Of a stretch of 64,000 nt of DNA, positions 29,590 to 34,705 are shown one piece after another. Position 1 is the first letter of the stretch; each line of letters opens with the position of its first letter. The notes under the pieces are model-generated. The model saw only the letters and a list, made by a program, of their open reading frames with translations, was not told where the DNA came from and ran no database searches. The position numbers were made by a program, and so were the translations under genes. This DNA is from Formosa algae (GTDB lineage Bacteria; Bacteroidota; Bacteroidia; Flavobacteriales; Flavobacteriaceae). The DNA lies in the NCBI RefSeq assembly GCF_001439665.1, contig NZ_LMAK01000034.1:1-64000 (forward strand). Reading direction: 5' to 3'.

Positions 29590-29725
29590 TGCTATTTTTT
29601 AAAAAAAATTCATTAGAGATTATTCAGTTAAATAGATTTAAATTGCTTTTAAATAAACGATTTAAGCATAACAGTAAATAATCTGTAAAAACGTAAAATA
29701 CATTTTTTTATAACAGTAAAAGTAA

Positions 29726-29733
29726 TACATTTG
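29726..29733 (+). promoter_or_regulatory. putative TAnnTTTG promoter of the threonine operon
   Basis: TACATTTG is an exact -7 match, ending 19 bases before the leader-peptide ATG and about 220 bases before thrA. This predicts a long leader RNA that includes the leader peptide. Confidence 0.55.
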
Positions 29734-29752
29734 ATAAGTTTAGTAGTAAAAA

Positions 29753-29863
29753 ATGCAAAATACAGAACATACAATTCGTTTTATTTCAAGACCAACAAGC
29801 GTTGGTAGCATTGCTATTATTATTGCTTCTTTTACAAACATTATTACCCCTTGGGGTAATTAA
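29753..29863 (+). CDS. thrL: threonine operon leader peptide, Thr/Ile-rich
   Basis: A 36-codon frame from ATG (29753) to TAA (29861-29863). Of the 36 residues, 8 are Ile, all read from ATT, and 5 are Thr; they cluster in the second half, as in SIAIIIASFTNIITPWGN. It follows a promoter box and precedes thrA by 89 bases. In E. coli the thr operon is attenuated by both threonine and isoleucine through a leader peptide rich in these two residues. Here the same composition, position and pathway point to the same role. There is no sequence similarity to E. coli ThrL that I can see; the function is inferred. Too short for most gene finders. Confidence 0.7.
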   Translation: MQNTEHTIRFISRPTSVGSIAIIIASFTNIITPWGN

Positions 29864-29904
29864 TTATATATCTTCCGTCCACAGAAATTGTAATGTCACA
29901 TTAC
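29843..29904 (+). promoter_or_regulatory. candidate attenuator with competing pairing elements
   Basis: The end of the leader peptide lies in a perfect 8-bp inverted repeat (ATTACCCC, 2-base gap, GGGGTAAT; 29843-29860). A second hairpin with arms GTAAT and ATTAC follows at 29890-29904. The two GTAAT and two ATTAC segments can pair in alternative ways, as needed for attenuation. No clear T-run follows, so termination could be Rho-dependent or control could act on translation. Confidence 0.45.
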
Positions 29905-29952
29905 GATATCAACATAATAATAAGCTATTAAATTTATACAATCTACTTTAAA

Positions 29953-32397
29953 ATGAAAGTATTAAAATTCGGAGGAACATCTGTAGGGTCCTCAAAAAAC
30001 ATAACTAACGTTGTATCCATCTTAACCAAATATGCTCAAACAGACAAAGTAATTTGTGTGGTTTCTGCTGTAGGTGGAATTACAGATAAATTACTTGAAG
30101 CTGGGCAATTAGCACAATCTAAAAACAGTGCATATGCCGAGGCTTTTACAAATATAAAAGAAATCCATATCTCAATTATTAAGGAATTAATTCCTAATAA
30201 CAATGAAGCTGTTATTGAGTATGTAAACACCAAATTAGATGCCTTAAAAAATCTTTTAGACGGTATTTTCTTAATTAATGAATTATCTCCTAAAACATCT
30301 GACAAACTCGTTAGTTTTGGCGAGTTATTGTCGTCTTATATTATAGGTGAAACCTTGAAAAGTAAAGGTGCTAATGCAGAACGTAAAAACAGTCAGGAGT
30401 TAATAACCACAAACTCTAACTTTACTAAGGCGGAAGTAAACTATAAAGTGACTAATGCTAATATTCAAGAGTATTTTAAAACTAGCACGTTCGACATTAC
30501 GATACTTCCTGGGTTTATTTCTAAATCGGTAACCGGTGAAATTACAACTTTAGGTCGTGGTGGATCAGATTTTACTGCTGCAATTGTTGCCGCAGCTTTA
30601 GAAGTAGATCAATTAGAAATCTGGACAGATGTTAGTGGTATGTACACTGCTAATCCTAAAATGGTAAAACAAGCGCTTCCGATAAATAAATTATCGTATC
30701 AAGAGGCTATGGAATTATCTCATTTTGGTGCTAAAGTGCTTTATCCGCCAACCGTACAACCGGTATTGAGTTTACAAATTCCAATTCATATAAAGAACAC
30801 TTTAGAACCTGATGCTGTAGGTACCATTATCTCTAAAGATGGTAGTAATGTAAACAACGCTGCAAAAGGGATAACTAATATCAGTAATGTGGCGTTATTA
30901 ACGCTTCAAGGTAACGGAATGGTAGGAATTCCAGGATTCTCTAGACGATTATTCCAAACCTTAGCTCAAGAAAAAATTAACGTGATTTTAATCACGCAAG
31001 CCTCTTCAGAACATTCTATTTGTTTTGGTATTGATGATAAAGATGCTATATCGGCAAAATCGGCTATTGATGCTGAATTTGAAAATGAAATTTCTTTAAA
31101 GAAAATCGATCCTATTTTAGTTGAAAGTAACTTATCTATTATTGCACTTATTGGTGATAGCATGAAGAGTCACCAAGGGATTAGCGGTAAAATGTTTAGT
31201 GCTCTAGGTAAAAACAACATTAATATTAGAGCCATTGCTCAAGGTGCTTCAGAACGTAATATTTCTGCTATCATCTCTCAAAACGACGTTAAAAAAGCGT
31301 TGAATATTTTACACGAAGTGTTCTTTGAAGGAAACATTAAGCAACTAAATGTATTTATTACAGGTGTTGGAAATGTAGGAGAGCGTTTAGTAGAACAAAT
31401 TAAACAACAACGTAAATATTTAAAGGAAAACCTTAAAATTAATCTTCGTGTTGCTGGACTATCTAATTCAAGAAAAATGATATTCGATACCGATGGTTTA
31501 TCATTAAAAAATTGGAAAGAACAGTTAGCAGAAGGTAAAGATGCAACTTTAGAAGGCTTTTACGAGTCTGTTAAACAATTAAACTTACGTAACAGTGTCT
31601 TTGTAGATGTTACTGCTAATAAAGATGTTGCCGATTTATACGCGATGTATTTAAAGCAAAGTATTGCTGTGGTTGCTTGTAACAAAATAGCATGTTCAAG
31701 CAAGCTAGAAAAATATAAAGAATTAAAACAATTATCGTTTAAATACAATGCGCCGTATTTATTTGAAACTAATGTTGGAGCAGGTTTACCTGTTATAGAT
31801 ACACTTAACAACCTTATTGCTTCTGGAGATAAAGTAACCTCTATTCAAGCTGTATTATCGGGAAGTTTAAACTTTGTATTTAACAACTTTAACGATACTA
31901 CTAAGTTTTACGATGTGGTTAAGCAAGCTGCAGCAGAAGGCTATACAGAACCAGATCCACGTATTGATTTAAGCGGTGTAGATGTTGCTAGAAAAATCTT
32001 AATTCTTGCTCGTGAAAGCGGTACTGAAATGGATTTAGAAGATATTGAAAATACATCATTTTTATCTGAAGCTGGTGTGAAAAGTGATACGGTAGCCGAT
32101 TTCTACGAGACTTTAATAGCAGACGAAGCACATTATCAAAAACTATATGCTTCAGCAAAAGCGAATAACAGTCAGTTAAAATATGTAGCCGAATTTAATA
32201 ACGGTGAAGCTAAAGTTGGATTAAAAGAAATTCCAGAAGGGCATCCATTCTACAACTTAGAAGGAAAAGATAACATTGTGATGTTTTACACACAACGCTA
32301 CCCAGAACAACCTATGATTATTAAAGGTGCTGGTGCTGGAGCAGAAGTTACAGCTTCTGGTTTATTTGCAGACATCATACGTATAGGAAACAACTAA
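29953..32397 (+). CDS. thrA: bifunctional aspartokinase I/homoserine dehydrogenase I
   Basis: Performs the first and third steps from aspartate to threonine. The 814 residues begin with the aspartokinase motif KFGGTSVG (4-11), followed by the kinase domain with TLGRGGSDFTA (about 196-206), two ACT-type regulatory segments (about 310-460), and a homoserine dehydrogenase domain starting at the Rossmann motif ITGVGNVG near 472 and including GAGLPVIDTL near 612. The fusion and length match ThrA. It heads the thrABC operon, 60 bases before thrB. Feedback by threonine is expected from the family. Confidence 0.96.
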   Translation: MKVLKFGGTSVGSSKNITNVVSILTKYAQTDKVICVVSAVGGITDKLLEAGQLAQSKNSAYAEAFTNIKEIHISIIKELIPNNNEAVIEYVNTKLDALKNLLDGIFLINELSPKTSDKLVSFGELLSSYIIGETLKSKGANAERKNSQELITTNSNFTKAEVNYKVTNANIQEYFKTSTFDITILPGFISKSVTGEITTLGRGGSDFTAAIVAAALEVDQLEIWTDVSGMYTANPKMVKQALPINKLSYQEAMELSHFGAKVLYPPTVQPVLSLQIPIHIKNTLEPDAVGTIISKDGSNVNNAAKGITNISNVALLTLQGNGMVGIPGFSRRLFQTLAQEKINVILITQASSEHSICFGIDDKDAISAKSAIDAEFENEISLKKIDPILVESNLSIIALIGDSMKSHQGISGKMFSALGKNNINIRAIAQGASERNISAIISQNDVKKALNILHEVFFEGNIKQLNVFITGVGNVGERLVEQIKQQRKYLKENLKINLRVAGLSNSRKMIFDTDGLSLKNWKEQLAEGKDATLEGFYESVKQLNLRNSVFVDVTANKDVADLYAMYLKQSIAVVACNKIACSSKLEKYKELKQLSFKYNAPYLFETNVGAGLPVIDTLNNLIASGDKVTSIQAVLSGSLNFVFNNFNDTTKFYDVVKQAAAEGYTEPDPRIDLSGVDVARKILILARESGTEMDLEDIENTSFLSEAGVKSDTVADFYETLIADEAHYQKLYASAKANNSQLKYVAEFNNGEAKVGLKEIPEGHPFYNLEGKDNIVMFYTQRYPEQPMIIKGAGAGAEVTASGLFADIIRIGNN

Positions 32398-32457: not shown

Positions 32458-33384
32458 ATGAACGAAATAAGAATATTTTCTCCTGCTACTGTTGCAAACG
32501 TCTCTTGCGGATTCGATGTATTAGGCTTTTGCTTAGACAGTGTAGGTGATGAAATGGTGATACGTAAGACCGATAAAAAAGGCATTTACATCACTAAAAT
32601 AGAAGGTTATGATTTACCATACGAAGCCGAAAAAAACGTTGCAGGTGTTTCTGCATTAGCCATGTATGCAGATGCTAAACCAGATTTTGGTTTCGAAATA
32701 GAAATTTATAAAAACATTAAACCAGGAAGCGGTGTGGGAAGTAGTTCTGCTAGCGCCGCCGGTAGTGTTTTCGGGATGAACGTATTATTAGGAAACCCTT
32801 ACAATAATACAGAGCTATCGTACTTTGCTATGAAAGGTGAAGCCCTAGCTAGCCAAAGCGAGCATGCAGATAATATTGCTCCTGCCCTATTTGGAGGTTT
32901 TACTTTGGTTAAAAGTGTATCACCATTAGAGATTTTAGAAATCCCAACCCCTAATAATTTATACGCCACGATTATTCATCCGCAAATAGAAATTAAAACT
33001 TCAGAAGCGCGTGCTATCTTACCTAAAGATGTGGCTTTAAAAGATGCCATTTTACAATGGGCTAATGTAGGGAGTCTTATTCATGGATTACATACCAATA
33101 ATTACGGATTAATAGAACGCTCTTTACACGATGCTATTGTAGAACCACACCGTAGCAAGCTTATACCATTGTATCAAGATGTTAAAGCAGCAGCCAAAAC
33201 AGCTGGCGCATTAGGCAGTGGAATCTCAGGTTCTGGCCCATCTATATTTTCACTATGTGAAGGTATTAATACGGCTAAATCTGTAGAACAAGCTATACGT
33301 AAAGTCTATGCAAATAGTGACATTGAATTCGATACTTATGTATCTAAAATCAATGCAGAAGGCATGAAAATATTGAATAACTAA
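32458..33384 (+). CDS. thrB: homoserine kinase
   Basis: A GHMP-family kinase that phosphorylates homoserine. The 308 residues show the ATP-binding motif PGSGVGSSSASAAG (about 92-105), the N-terminal FSPATVANVSCGFDVLGF substrate region and the C-terminal GSGISGSGPSIF loop. All are intact and length is normal. It lies between thrA and thrC in the same direction, with gaps of 60 and 25 bases. Confidence 0.96.
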   Translation: MNEIRIFSPATVANVSCGFDVLGFCLDSVGDEMVIRKTDKKGIYITKIEGYDLPYEAEKNVAGVSALAMYADAKPDFGFEIEIYKNIKPGSGVGSSSASAAGSVFGMNVLLGNPYNNTELSYFAMKGEALASQSEHADNIAPALFGGFTLVKSVSPLEILEIPTPNNLYATIIHPQIEIKTSEARAILPKDVALKDAILQWANVGSLIHGLHTNNYGLIERSLHDAIVEPHRSKLIPLYQDVKAAAKTAGALGSGISGSGPSIFSLCEGINTAKSVEQAIRKVYANSDIEFDTYVSKINAEGMKILNN

Positions 33385-33409: not shown

Positions 33410-34705
33410 ATGAATTTTTTTAGTTTAAACAAAGAAGCTCCGGATACTACATTTAAAGATGCTGTAATCAGAGGGCTTGCACCAGACCGAGGTTTATATT
33501 TCCCAGAAAAGATAACTCCTCTGTCTGAAGATTTTTTTAAGAATATTGATAATTTATCACATGCTGAAATTGCTTTTGAAGCCATCAAACAATTTGTGTC
33601 TCCAGAAATTCCAGAAGATGAATTAAAAACTATTGTTGAAGAAACGTTATCCTTCGATTTCCCTATAGTAGAACTAAATAAAAACATATCGTTTTTAGAG
33701 CTTTTCCATGGTCCAACTATGGCTTTTAAAGATGTTGGTGCACGTTTTATGGCACGTTGTTTAGGACATTTTTCTAAAGACGCTAAACAAGATGTTACTG
33801 TTTTAGTTGCCACTTCAGGTGATACCGGAGGTGCAGTTGCTAATGGTTTTTTAGGTGTTGAAGGTGTAAAAGTCGTTATTCTTTACCCGAGCGGAAAAGT
33901 GAGCGATATTCAAGAAAAACAATTAACTACACTAAAAAAGAACATTACTGCTTTAGAAGTTAATGGCACGTTCGACGATTGTCAGGATATGGTAAAACAA
34001 GCCTTTTTAGATGCCGAATTAACAGATCACATGAAGTTAACTTCTGCTAATTCTATTAACGTTGCGCGTTGGTTACCTCAATTGTTCTATTTTATGTTTG
34101 CTTATAAACAGCTTCATAACAAATACGATAACCTTGTGTTTTCTATTCCTAGCGGAAACTTCGGAAATGTTTGTGCTGGTATGATGGCTCAACAACTTGG
34201 TTTACCTATTACACACTATATCGCATCTAACAACGAAAACAACGTAGTTACAAGATATCTTGAATCTGAACATTACGATGTAAAACCATCAATACAAACC
34301 ATTTCTAACGCTATGGATGTAGGTAATCCAAGTAACTTTGTTAGAATTCAAGAAATCTATAAAAATGATTTCAGTTTACTAAAAGAAAATTTATCGTCTT
34401 ACAGTTTCACAGATGAAGAAACGAAAGTCGCGATGAAAGAAATTTATAACGACTATAGTTATGTTGCAGATCCGCATGGTGCTGTTGGGTATTTAGGAGC
34501 TAAAAACTATGTAGAATCGCATCCAGAAGCACATTGTGTATGTTTAGAAACAGCACATCCAACTAAATTTTTAGATGTTGTAGGCGAAGTAATCAAAGAA
34601 AATATAGAGTTACCTGCTCAAATTTTAGCCGTCATGGATAAAAAGAAAAAATCTATAAAAATTAGTACATATAATGACTTAAAAACATATCTATTAAATC
34701 GTTAA
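33410..34705 (+). CDS. thrC: threonine synthase
   Basis: A PLP enzyme converting O-phosphohomoserine to threonine, the last step of the operon's pathway. The 431 residues contain the PLP lysine in HGPTMAFKDVGARFM (about 101-115), the TSGDTGGAVA phosphate/substrate loop and the SIPSGNFGNVCAG motif. The length fits the short bacterial class. It closes the thrABC operon, 25 bases after thrB, and is followed by a terminator. Confidence 0.96.
   Translation: MNFFSLNKEAPDTTFKDAVIRGLAPDRGLYFPEKITPLSEDFFKNIDNLSHAEIAFEAIKQFVSPEIPEDELKTIVEETLSFDFPIVELNKNISFLELFHGPTMAFKDVGARFMARCLGHFSKDAKQDVTVLVATSGDTGGAVANGFLGVEGVKVVILYPSGKVSDIQEKQLTTLKKNITALEVNGTFDDCQDMVKQAFLDAELTDHMKLTSANSINVARWLPQLFYFMFAYKQLHNKYDNLVFSIPSGNFGNVCAGMMAQQLGLPITHYIASNNENNVVTRYLESEHYDVKPSIQTISNAMDVGNPSNFVRIQEIYKNDFSLLKENLSSYSFTDEETKVAMKEIYNDYSYVADPHGAVGYLGAKNYVESHPEAHCVCLETAHPTKFLDVVGEVIKENIELPAQILAVMDKKKKSIKISTYNDLKTYLLNR

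Follow-up and report, generated by a model that had tools for sequence, protein, structure and literature searches.

A conserved threonine/isoleucine-rich leader frame ahead of thrABC in the Flavobacteriaceae: a candidate attenuator with a non-standard output stage

Described leader-peptide systems and the thrABC locus

Attenuation mediated by leader peptides is textbook material for the Proteobacteria, and the closest counterpart of the element analysed here is the leader of the E. coli thr operon, thrL, which is represented in Rfam as RF00506 (Thr_leader). A survey of 2010 states that to its authors' knowledge no such case had been shown outside the Proteobacteria and Actinobacteria save their own from the Firmicutes, the atypical ermC leader being set aside (PMC2965389). 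For the poly-Cys leaders of mycobacterial cys operons, no terminator was found and Rho was suggested, with pyrimidine motifs that are not conserved (PMC1262725). These leaders resemble the element described below in that the regulatory codons lie near the stop codon and a terminator is absent; they differ in the amino acid and the phylum, and in having no conserved terminator-like hairpin, whereas the elements that we denote P, M and H3 are conserved here. In the actinobacterial ilvB leaders (PMC1262725), the regulatory codons overlap a hairpin, as is also the case here, but that hairpin is followed by a poly-U run.

With respect to the Bacteroidota, only general hints were found in print (PMC9723704, PMC7366714). 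In Flavobacterium psychrophilum, likewise a member of the Flavobacteriaceae, 'strong clues' of leader-peptide attenuation ahead of amino-acid operons were reported, and the conserved 5' elements include those of pheA and hisG, with neither thrA nor threonine appearing in the main text (PMC9723704). In Bacteroides thetaiotaomicron, which belongs to the same phylum, short ORFs in long 5' UTRs were described as reminiscent of attenuation-mediating leader peptides; the example given is a hypothetical gene, and the main text contains neither threonine nor thrA (PMC7366714). Among the matches listed in a search of the open literature, mostly titles and the beginnings of abstracts, we found no report of a thr leader in Bacteroidota. 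On the evidence of sequence comparison, the Thr/Ile leader of thrABC is a real and conserved element that we did not find described in the open literature; its predicted sensing is of a known kind, and it is probably a variant in its output stage.

The window, i.e., the whole stretch of 64,000 nucleotides of the Formosa algae genome that was analysed, carries on its forward strand thrA, coding for a fused aspartate kinase/homoserine dehydrogenase I (29953..32397; NF006959, 1033.9 bits against a cut-off of 726), thrB, coding for homoserine kinase (32458..33384; TIGR00191), and thrC, coding for threonine synthase (33410..34705; TIGR00260), each assigned by a score above the cut-off of the respective NCBIfam equivalog model. 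Upstream of the leader, on the opposite strand, lies a gene for an NAD(P)H-hydrate epimerase/dehydratase. The leader ORF occupies positions 29753..29863 of the forward strand and comprises 36 codons from ATG to TAA (MQNTEHTIRFISRPTSVGSIAIIIASFTNIITPWGN, then TAA), among them 8 Ile and 5 Thr; it is separated by 89 bases from thrA, the ATG of which is at 29953. All these particulars agree with the initial annotation, which had moreover described the two amino acids as concentrated just before the end of the frame. This holds for Ile, 6 of the 8 residues falling into the Thr/Ile-rich codons 20-32 (29810..29848, forward strand; Ile at codons 20, 22, 23, 24, 30 and 31), but not for Thr, which is spread over the frame, with 2 of the 5 residues in that segment (codons 28 and 32). 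The promoter box that had been noted ahead of the frame is likewise present, as TACATTTG at 29726..29733 of the forward strand, 19 bases ahead of the leader ATG; presumably it is a -7 box of the Bacteroidota type, with the consensus TAnnTTTG. Across relatives, 161 of 174 loci have a strict match to TAnnTTTG at 40-170 nt ahead of hairpin P, described below, as do 167 of 1740 shuffles.

Taken alone, the single leader frame is only mildly unusual. An ATG frame of at least 36 codons arises in 500 of 5000 dinucleotide shuffles of the 363-base spacer, and a frame of at least 30 codons with at least 5 Thr and at least 8 Ile arises in 25 of 5000; given these 25 shuffles, the frame is no more than suggestive by itself, and it is conservation that carries the argument.

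What the leader shares with E. coli thrL is a short ORF with many Thr and Ile codons, placed immediately ahead of thrABC, through which both end products would be sensed; the likeness lies in the codons, the leader being too short to show or exclude common descent. In contrast to thrL, the sensor codons here enter the arm of a hairpin itself, and a spacer with the elements M and H3 follows. Of the parallel with the E. coli thr leader that the initial annotation had drawn, the shared use of Thr and Ile codons stands, whereas the output seems to differ, because no U-run terminator was flagged and no Rfam thr-leader model matched. In the Rfam search over the window, only 6S-Flavo RNA (RF01685; 51133..51260 on the reverse strand, 96.9 bits) reached its gathering score, and within 29600-30050, with E-values up to 5 admitted, there was only a sub-threshold match to frnS.

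Conservation of the leader frame and of its terminal hairpin

Directly ahead of the leader stop codon ends a hairpin that was absent from the initial annotation, P (29843..29860, forward strand; AUUACCC-CUUG-GGGUAAU), which has 7 base pairs and holds the last Thr codon in its 5' arm. Among relatives, it takes the form of a palindrome, ACCC(C)...(G)GGGT, at the leader end. For comparison we used 247 spacers ahead of thrA: 6 from the genus, the window included (thrA is present in 6/6 genomes), 111 from a draw of family genomes, 80 named loci and 50 from a class draw, of which 3 are further family loci and 47 lie outside the family. At E 1e-200, thrA was found in 114 of 149 family genomes; the family count leaves aside G128 (partial thrA) and G344 (38% identity), and G000 and G003 are counted under the genus. 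Within 260 bases ahead of thrA, P is present in 87 of 111 family genomes, 6/6 genus genomes, 69 of 80 named loci and 2 of 3 further family loci, and in 12 of 47 loci outside the family. It was not found in this interval in 24 of the 111 family genomes, one of which (L113, G139) has P farther upstream, as a model hit, two of which (L102 and L107) carry a leader of the terminator type, and four of which (L051, L052, L053 and L060) lack a leader.

All 34 best-matching thrA loci, 6 from the genus and 28 belonging to the 111-genome family draw, carry the short frame that the initial annotation had expected to be kept in relatives. In a stricter, hairpin-anchored form of this check, P was to be accompanied by a frame in which 5 or more of the 14 codons preceding P are for Thr or Ile, and by a Thr codon at its arm. 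This combination occurs in 79/111 family genomes, 6/6 genus genomes, 65/80 named loci, 2/3 further family loci and 8/47 loci outside the family, the named and family counts not being independent because their genera overlap. Shuffled spacers yielded it in 0 of 4940 cases (0/2220 for the family, 0/1600 for the named set, 0/940 outside the family), and reverse complements, in which the palindrome is retained, in 4 family, 1 genus, 0 named, 0 further family and 2 outside loci. The drift anticipated elsewhere in the frame is apparent as well, in the N-terminal half of the leader peptide, and the reading of the frame as a Thr/Ile leader of thrABC gains support from its conservation among relatives. 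A different test, which called for at least 3 Thr and at least 6 Thr+Ile within the last 15 codons, was passed by 149 of the 247 spacers, by 58 of 2470 shuffled ones and by 5 of 247 reverse complements; since the window itself, with 2 Thr, fails this test, the hairpin-anchored one is preferred.

The reading frame stands out further if P is chosen on its position only. In 87 of 88 family loci, the frame with Thr at the arm is then open for 25 codons, compared with 16 and 26 loci for the other two frames, and in the named set it is so in 70/70 loci, compared with 14 and 37; outside the family, it is open in 9 of 11 loci and the other frames in 2 and 8, which affords little discrimination. At the seven codons ahead of P, Thr and Ile together account for 99, 87, 77, 50, 71, 64 and 65% (176 loci, Thr frame only), percentages that are inflated by the choice of the frame as the richest in Thr/Ile there.

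A Thr codon leads into the arm of P in 174 of 176 loci. The residues after the arm are free: these 174 loci show 40 different peptide ends, among them LWGC, PLG, R, P and PFGV. In 20 of the 174, the stop codon falls within the loop or the 3' arm of P, and in 142 it comes 1-5 bases past the G run. Because neither the peptide beyond P nor the location of the stop codon is constant, it appears that the RNA hairpin rather than the end of the peptide is conserved. Moreover, the lengths of the C and G runs of P are coupled, 3 occurring with 3 or 4, and 4 with 4 to 6. Covariation is clearly above that in shuffles only for the first outer pair (0/1000 for all loci, 3/1000 for the family draw), and the near invariance of the core of P accounts for the scarcity of covariation within the family. 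In family f16, the arms of P are swapped (ACGGG-GUAA-CCCGU or alike); the Thr codon ACG is retained, and the loop contains the stop codon. As judged by eye, four of the five loci show this arrangement clearly and L262 shows it weakly.

In view of these comparisons, conservation extends to the frame, its Thr/Ile codons, the promoter box and the elements P, M and H3. The predicted leader occurs widely within the family and again in other families of its class, i.e., it is not peculiar to the Formosa algae genome. We observed that in one relative (L294) P is retained ahead of thrA despite few Thr/Ile codons, the leader ending in SISSETPMG; P may have a role other than sensing there, or the leader may be decaying.

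Spacer elements and their association with thrA

Besides P, three further elements were delineated, all on the forward strand. H1 (29791..29806; ACCAAC-AAGC-GUUGGU; -7.2 kcal/mol) is a hairpin inside the leader ORF, ahead of the Thr/Ile run. A hairpin occupies this position in the genus, and hairpins of differing sequence do so in many near relatives; in the energy test, the mean z is -1.38 for the genus and only -0.55, a weak value, for the family draw.

M (29867..29880; UAUAUCUUCCGUCC) is an unpaired motif that begins 11 bases past the last G of P. A motif search over 87 family loci recovered it as approximately AUAUUCUUCCGU, with a log-likelihood of 208 against 33-36 in three shuffles, and in 73 of these 87 loci 9-14 bases separate the last G of P from its start. 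It is short, pyrimidine-rich and conserved, it includes a conserved G, and it is unpaired, with a mean z of +0.2 to +0.4 in the genus and family sets (+0.34 in the family draw). Its own genome contains a single match to M without mismatches and four more with one mismatch. Pairing of the G arm of P with M once the C arm is covered was considered and rejected: the partners peak at M, and the total barely exceeds that in shuffles. With the C arm masked, the pairing probability of the G arm is 0.71, compared with 0.67 when the downstream sequence is shuffled, and no clear alternative structure emerged.

H3 (29887..29907; AUUGUAAUG-UCA-CAUUACGAU) is an AU-rich hairpin between M and thrA. In alignment A3, which comprises 73 loci from the genus and near genera with near-identical rows omitted, 83.6% of the H3 cells are paired compared with 75.3% in shuffles. 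Double changes number 40 where shuffles give 10.7, further pair types 24 where they give 15.2, and the covariation score is 0.267 where theirs is 0.148; in each of these four measures, 0 of 500 shuffles scored as high. Pairs changed on both sides number 7 against 5.2, a value reached by 58 of 500 shuffles, and versions of the hairpin slid along the alignment have 32-52% paired cells and covariation scores of 0.057-0.117. We conclude, from these alignments, that within the genus and its near genera H3 is a genuine RNA hairpin. Farther out in the family, a hairpin at this position is supported by the energy test alone (mean z -1.42). A mutual-information scan was dominated by relatedness, a single H3 pair standing out, and was left unused.

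How closely this arrangement is tied to thrA was assessed with covariance models, of which R1, with only 2 base pairs, was set aside. Among the alignments used, A1 comprises 81 of the 176 P rows and A2 comprises 27 loci that share one hairpin register. Model R2, built from 27 far loci with zero sequences from the genus itself, matches the window at 29832-29875 with E 1.8e-5, the next match in the genome being at E 0.61. Across 149 family genomes, 78 have an R2 match at E <=0.5, and 65 of the 86 matches listed sit 43-241 bases ahead of thrA; most of the model loci come from the searched family genomes, and their matches are expected by construction. At E <=1e-3, 34 of 34 matches are ahead of thrA, the 34th (L294, G099; E 4.5e-4) preceding a thrA that had missed the E 1e-200 cut-off. 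Of the 21 matches that were not ahead of an initially found thrA, 16 were inspected, and among the other five the one in G115 is the opposite strand of a site already counted; none of the 15 other inspected matches showed a Thr/Ile leader ahead of a biosynthetic gene. One of these 15, L307, has a short frame that ends in LITTTPLG, but a frame of 80 codons was not found after it, and in two family genomes (L295 and L298, weak R2 matches) hairpins of the ACCCC...GGGG type stand right ahead of an rpsL-like gene.

As marks of other operons in the genome, P and M were tried and rejected: there are 22 P-like sites against 28 in the control, with 0 of the 21 others leader-like, and 5 M sites against 8. 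No such leader was found with the other thrA-like fusion of the genome, on contig C19, or with the aspartate kinase on C67.

Output stage, alternatives and variant leaders

What appears to set the element apart is its output. P is followed by mixed A/U sequence with no U-run, and a U-run terminator between leader and thrA was flagged in 0 of 6 genus loci, the window included. Even a loose scan between P and thrA flagged terminator-like sites in only 19 of 174 P-type loci, and these often consist of P itself with a U-rich patch some bases on. Given how rarely terminators were flagged, the predicted stopping step would be without a standard basis. Leaders of the classic type do occur in the same genome, where a His-rich leader (MNFIQLHHHHFHTCT; L284 on contig C45) ahead of hisG is followed by a U-run terminator (AAACCCC...GGGGUUUUAUUUUU), and an Ile/Val-rich leader (MKNNLVNIISISVVVIRS; L283 on contig C25) about 380 bases ahead of ilvD is followed by another (GCCUUCC...GGAAGGCUUUUUUU). 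These leaders share with the thr leader a short ORF carrying the codons of the product ahead of a biosynthetic gene and differ from it in that both have U-run terminators, so that classic attenuation appears to be at home in this genome and the thr leader to depart from it. Among relatives, all seven loci of family f41 (L254, L256, L257, L263, L267, L268 and L277) combine a Thr/Ile-rich leader with a strong stem and a U-run behind it, as in the example MTINNTIITTIITTGIKDGGR with its textbook terminator, and in 4 of these 7 loci a GGAGGAA at the leader end is complementary to the first arm of the terminator. The terminator-type leaders L102 and L107 lie inside the Flavobacteriaceae.

We consider it probable, at roughly 0.7, that the frame at 29753-29863 is a translated leader of thrABC that senses Thr and Ile through the position of the ribosome and acts as an attenuator with transcriptional output; its translation, the Thr/Ile sensing, the transcriptional output and the direction of that output are what we infer from the sequences compared. 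The best reading is that of an attenuator which would be old in the family, is seen in other families of the class and has a non-standard output stage. According to this proposal, a shortage of charged Thr- or Ile-tRNA would slow the leader ribosome at the codons for these amino acids, and the starved ribosome would wait within the Thr/Ile-rich segment, either ahead of P or on the first arm of P. With enough of both charged tRNAs, the ribosome would reach the stop codon beside P. The position of the ribosome would leave P free or covered while the polymerase is at or just past M, and the state of P would decide whether transcription continues into thrA or stops within the 89-base spacer, with plentiful Thr and Ile leading to an early stop and less thrA, and scarcity to more thrA. 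The stop without a U-run might be a pause or release dependent on P and M, or the action of Rho on the unpaired, pyrimidine-rich M. P overlaps the last Thr codon and adjoins or holds the stop codon, and it lies about 20 bases behind a polymerase positioned at the conserved G of M, which, given the polymerase footprint, would place P just outside a polymerase standing at M.

Tentatively, and with rather more doubt than confidence, we further propose that the hairpin controlling transcription takes up the last sensor codon in its own 5' arm, with the stop codon in or beside this hairpin, and that pausing or termination depends on M at its near-fixed distance rather than on a U-run. We found no description of such a combination. 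This would be the usual thr control of the Flavobacteriaceae and would extend to other families of the class, with some lineages (f41; L102, L107) using a classic terminator, so that one sensor would be combined with exchangeable output stages.

A version nested within the preferred reading, which we hold to be possible but unlikely, assigns the stop to Rho: M and the spacer that follows it would load Rho after the ribosome leaves at the stop codon, P and H3 would keep the RNA open or the polymerase waiting, and a stalled ribosome would block Rho or keep the polymerase moving. The pyrimidine-rich, unpaired M at its near-fixed distance and the lack of a flagged U-run terminator throughout the genus loci (6/6) speak for it, whereas the 89-base spacer is short for loading and release before translation of thrA starts, and M holds a conserved G, which Rho does not need. 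The terminator-less mycobacterial poly-Cys leaders were explained through Rho as well (PMC1262725). Control at the level of translation, in which the position of the leader ribosome would alter how accessible the start of thrA is, with H3 serving as the switch and transcription running on, strikes us as distinctly improbable. In the genus and near genera, a real hairpin, H3, does stand between leader and thrA, and T-boxes that presumably act on translation have been described (PMC1262725), yet H3 ends 45 bases ahead of the thrA ATG and leaves it uncovered. Complementarity of the H3 5' arm to the Ile-Thr codons of the leader, which would provide the switch, was seen by eye only in part of the near genera, and this candidate was dropped.

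That the locus is a classic attenuator of the E. coli type, its terminator and antiterminator having been missed by the scan, we regard as slightly more improbable again: the strong terminators behind the f41 leaders (7/7) and behind L102 and L107, together with those of the hisG and ilvD leaders of the same genome, speak for it, but against it stand the 0/6 terminators in the genus, the mixed A/U sequence after P and the missing Rfam thr-leader match. The conservation of the frame among relatives would also be explained if the peptide itself acted, as an arrest peptide or small protein, or if the frame aided translation of thrA by reinitiation. Both ideas appear very unlikely, given the 40 kinds of peptide ends in 174 loci and the drifting N-terminal half in the one case and, in the other, a gap of 89 bases, far from the peak at 11-14 bases that a study proposing reinitiation for leader genes gives for Bacteroidetes (PMC4833913). 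Finally, a chance frame in an AT-rich spacer, for which the 25 similar frames in 5000 shuffles could be adduced, is refuted in practice by the conservation of the frame (79/111 against 0/2220 shuffles), and its probability is negligible.

The preferred reading, a ribosome-mediated Thr/Ile attenuator with transcriptional output, makes the element a concrete, widely conserved candidate sensor ahead of thrABC in a family with cultured members. If it is an attenuator without a U-run, its stopping mechanism is directly testable, and because a leader of this kind is coupled to a classic terminator in some relatives, it would be possible to compare how the output stage evolved while the sensor stayed constant. 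Four relatives (L051, L052, L053 and L060) that lack the leader and have a promoter-like box (TAnnTTT) close to thrA amount to natural leader deletions and would be useful as controls.

Several other variants were observed ahead of thrA. The end of a gene lies closely upstream of it in L069, L071, L078, L082, L094 and L107, and presumably belongs to ilvA, since it reads like threonine dehydratase. In L265, L269 and L271, which belong to family f33, and in L273, Met codons occur together with Thr codons near the leader end; the former three end in MFMCTMTLRG, SVTGMTPRG and FMCTTTLRG, respectively, and L273 has an internal MTTIMSIMG. Conceivably, these leaders may sense methionine too.
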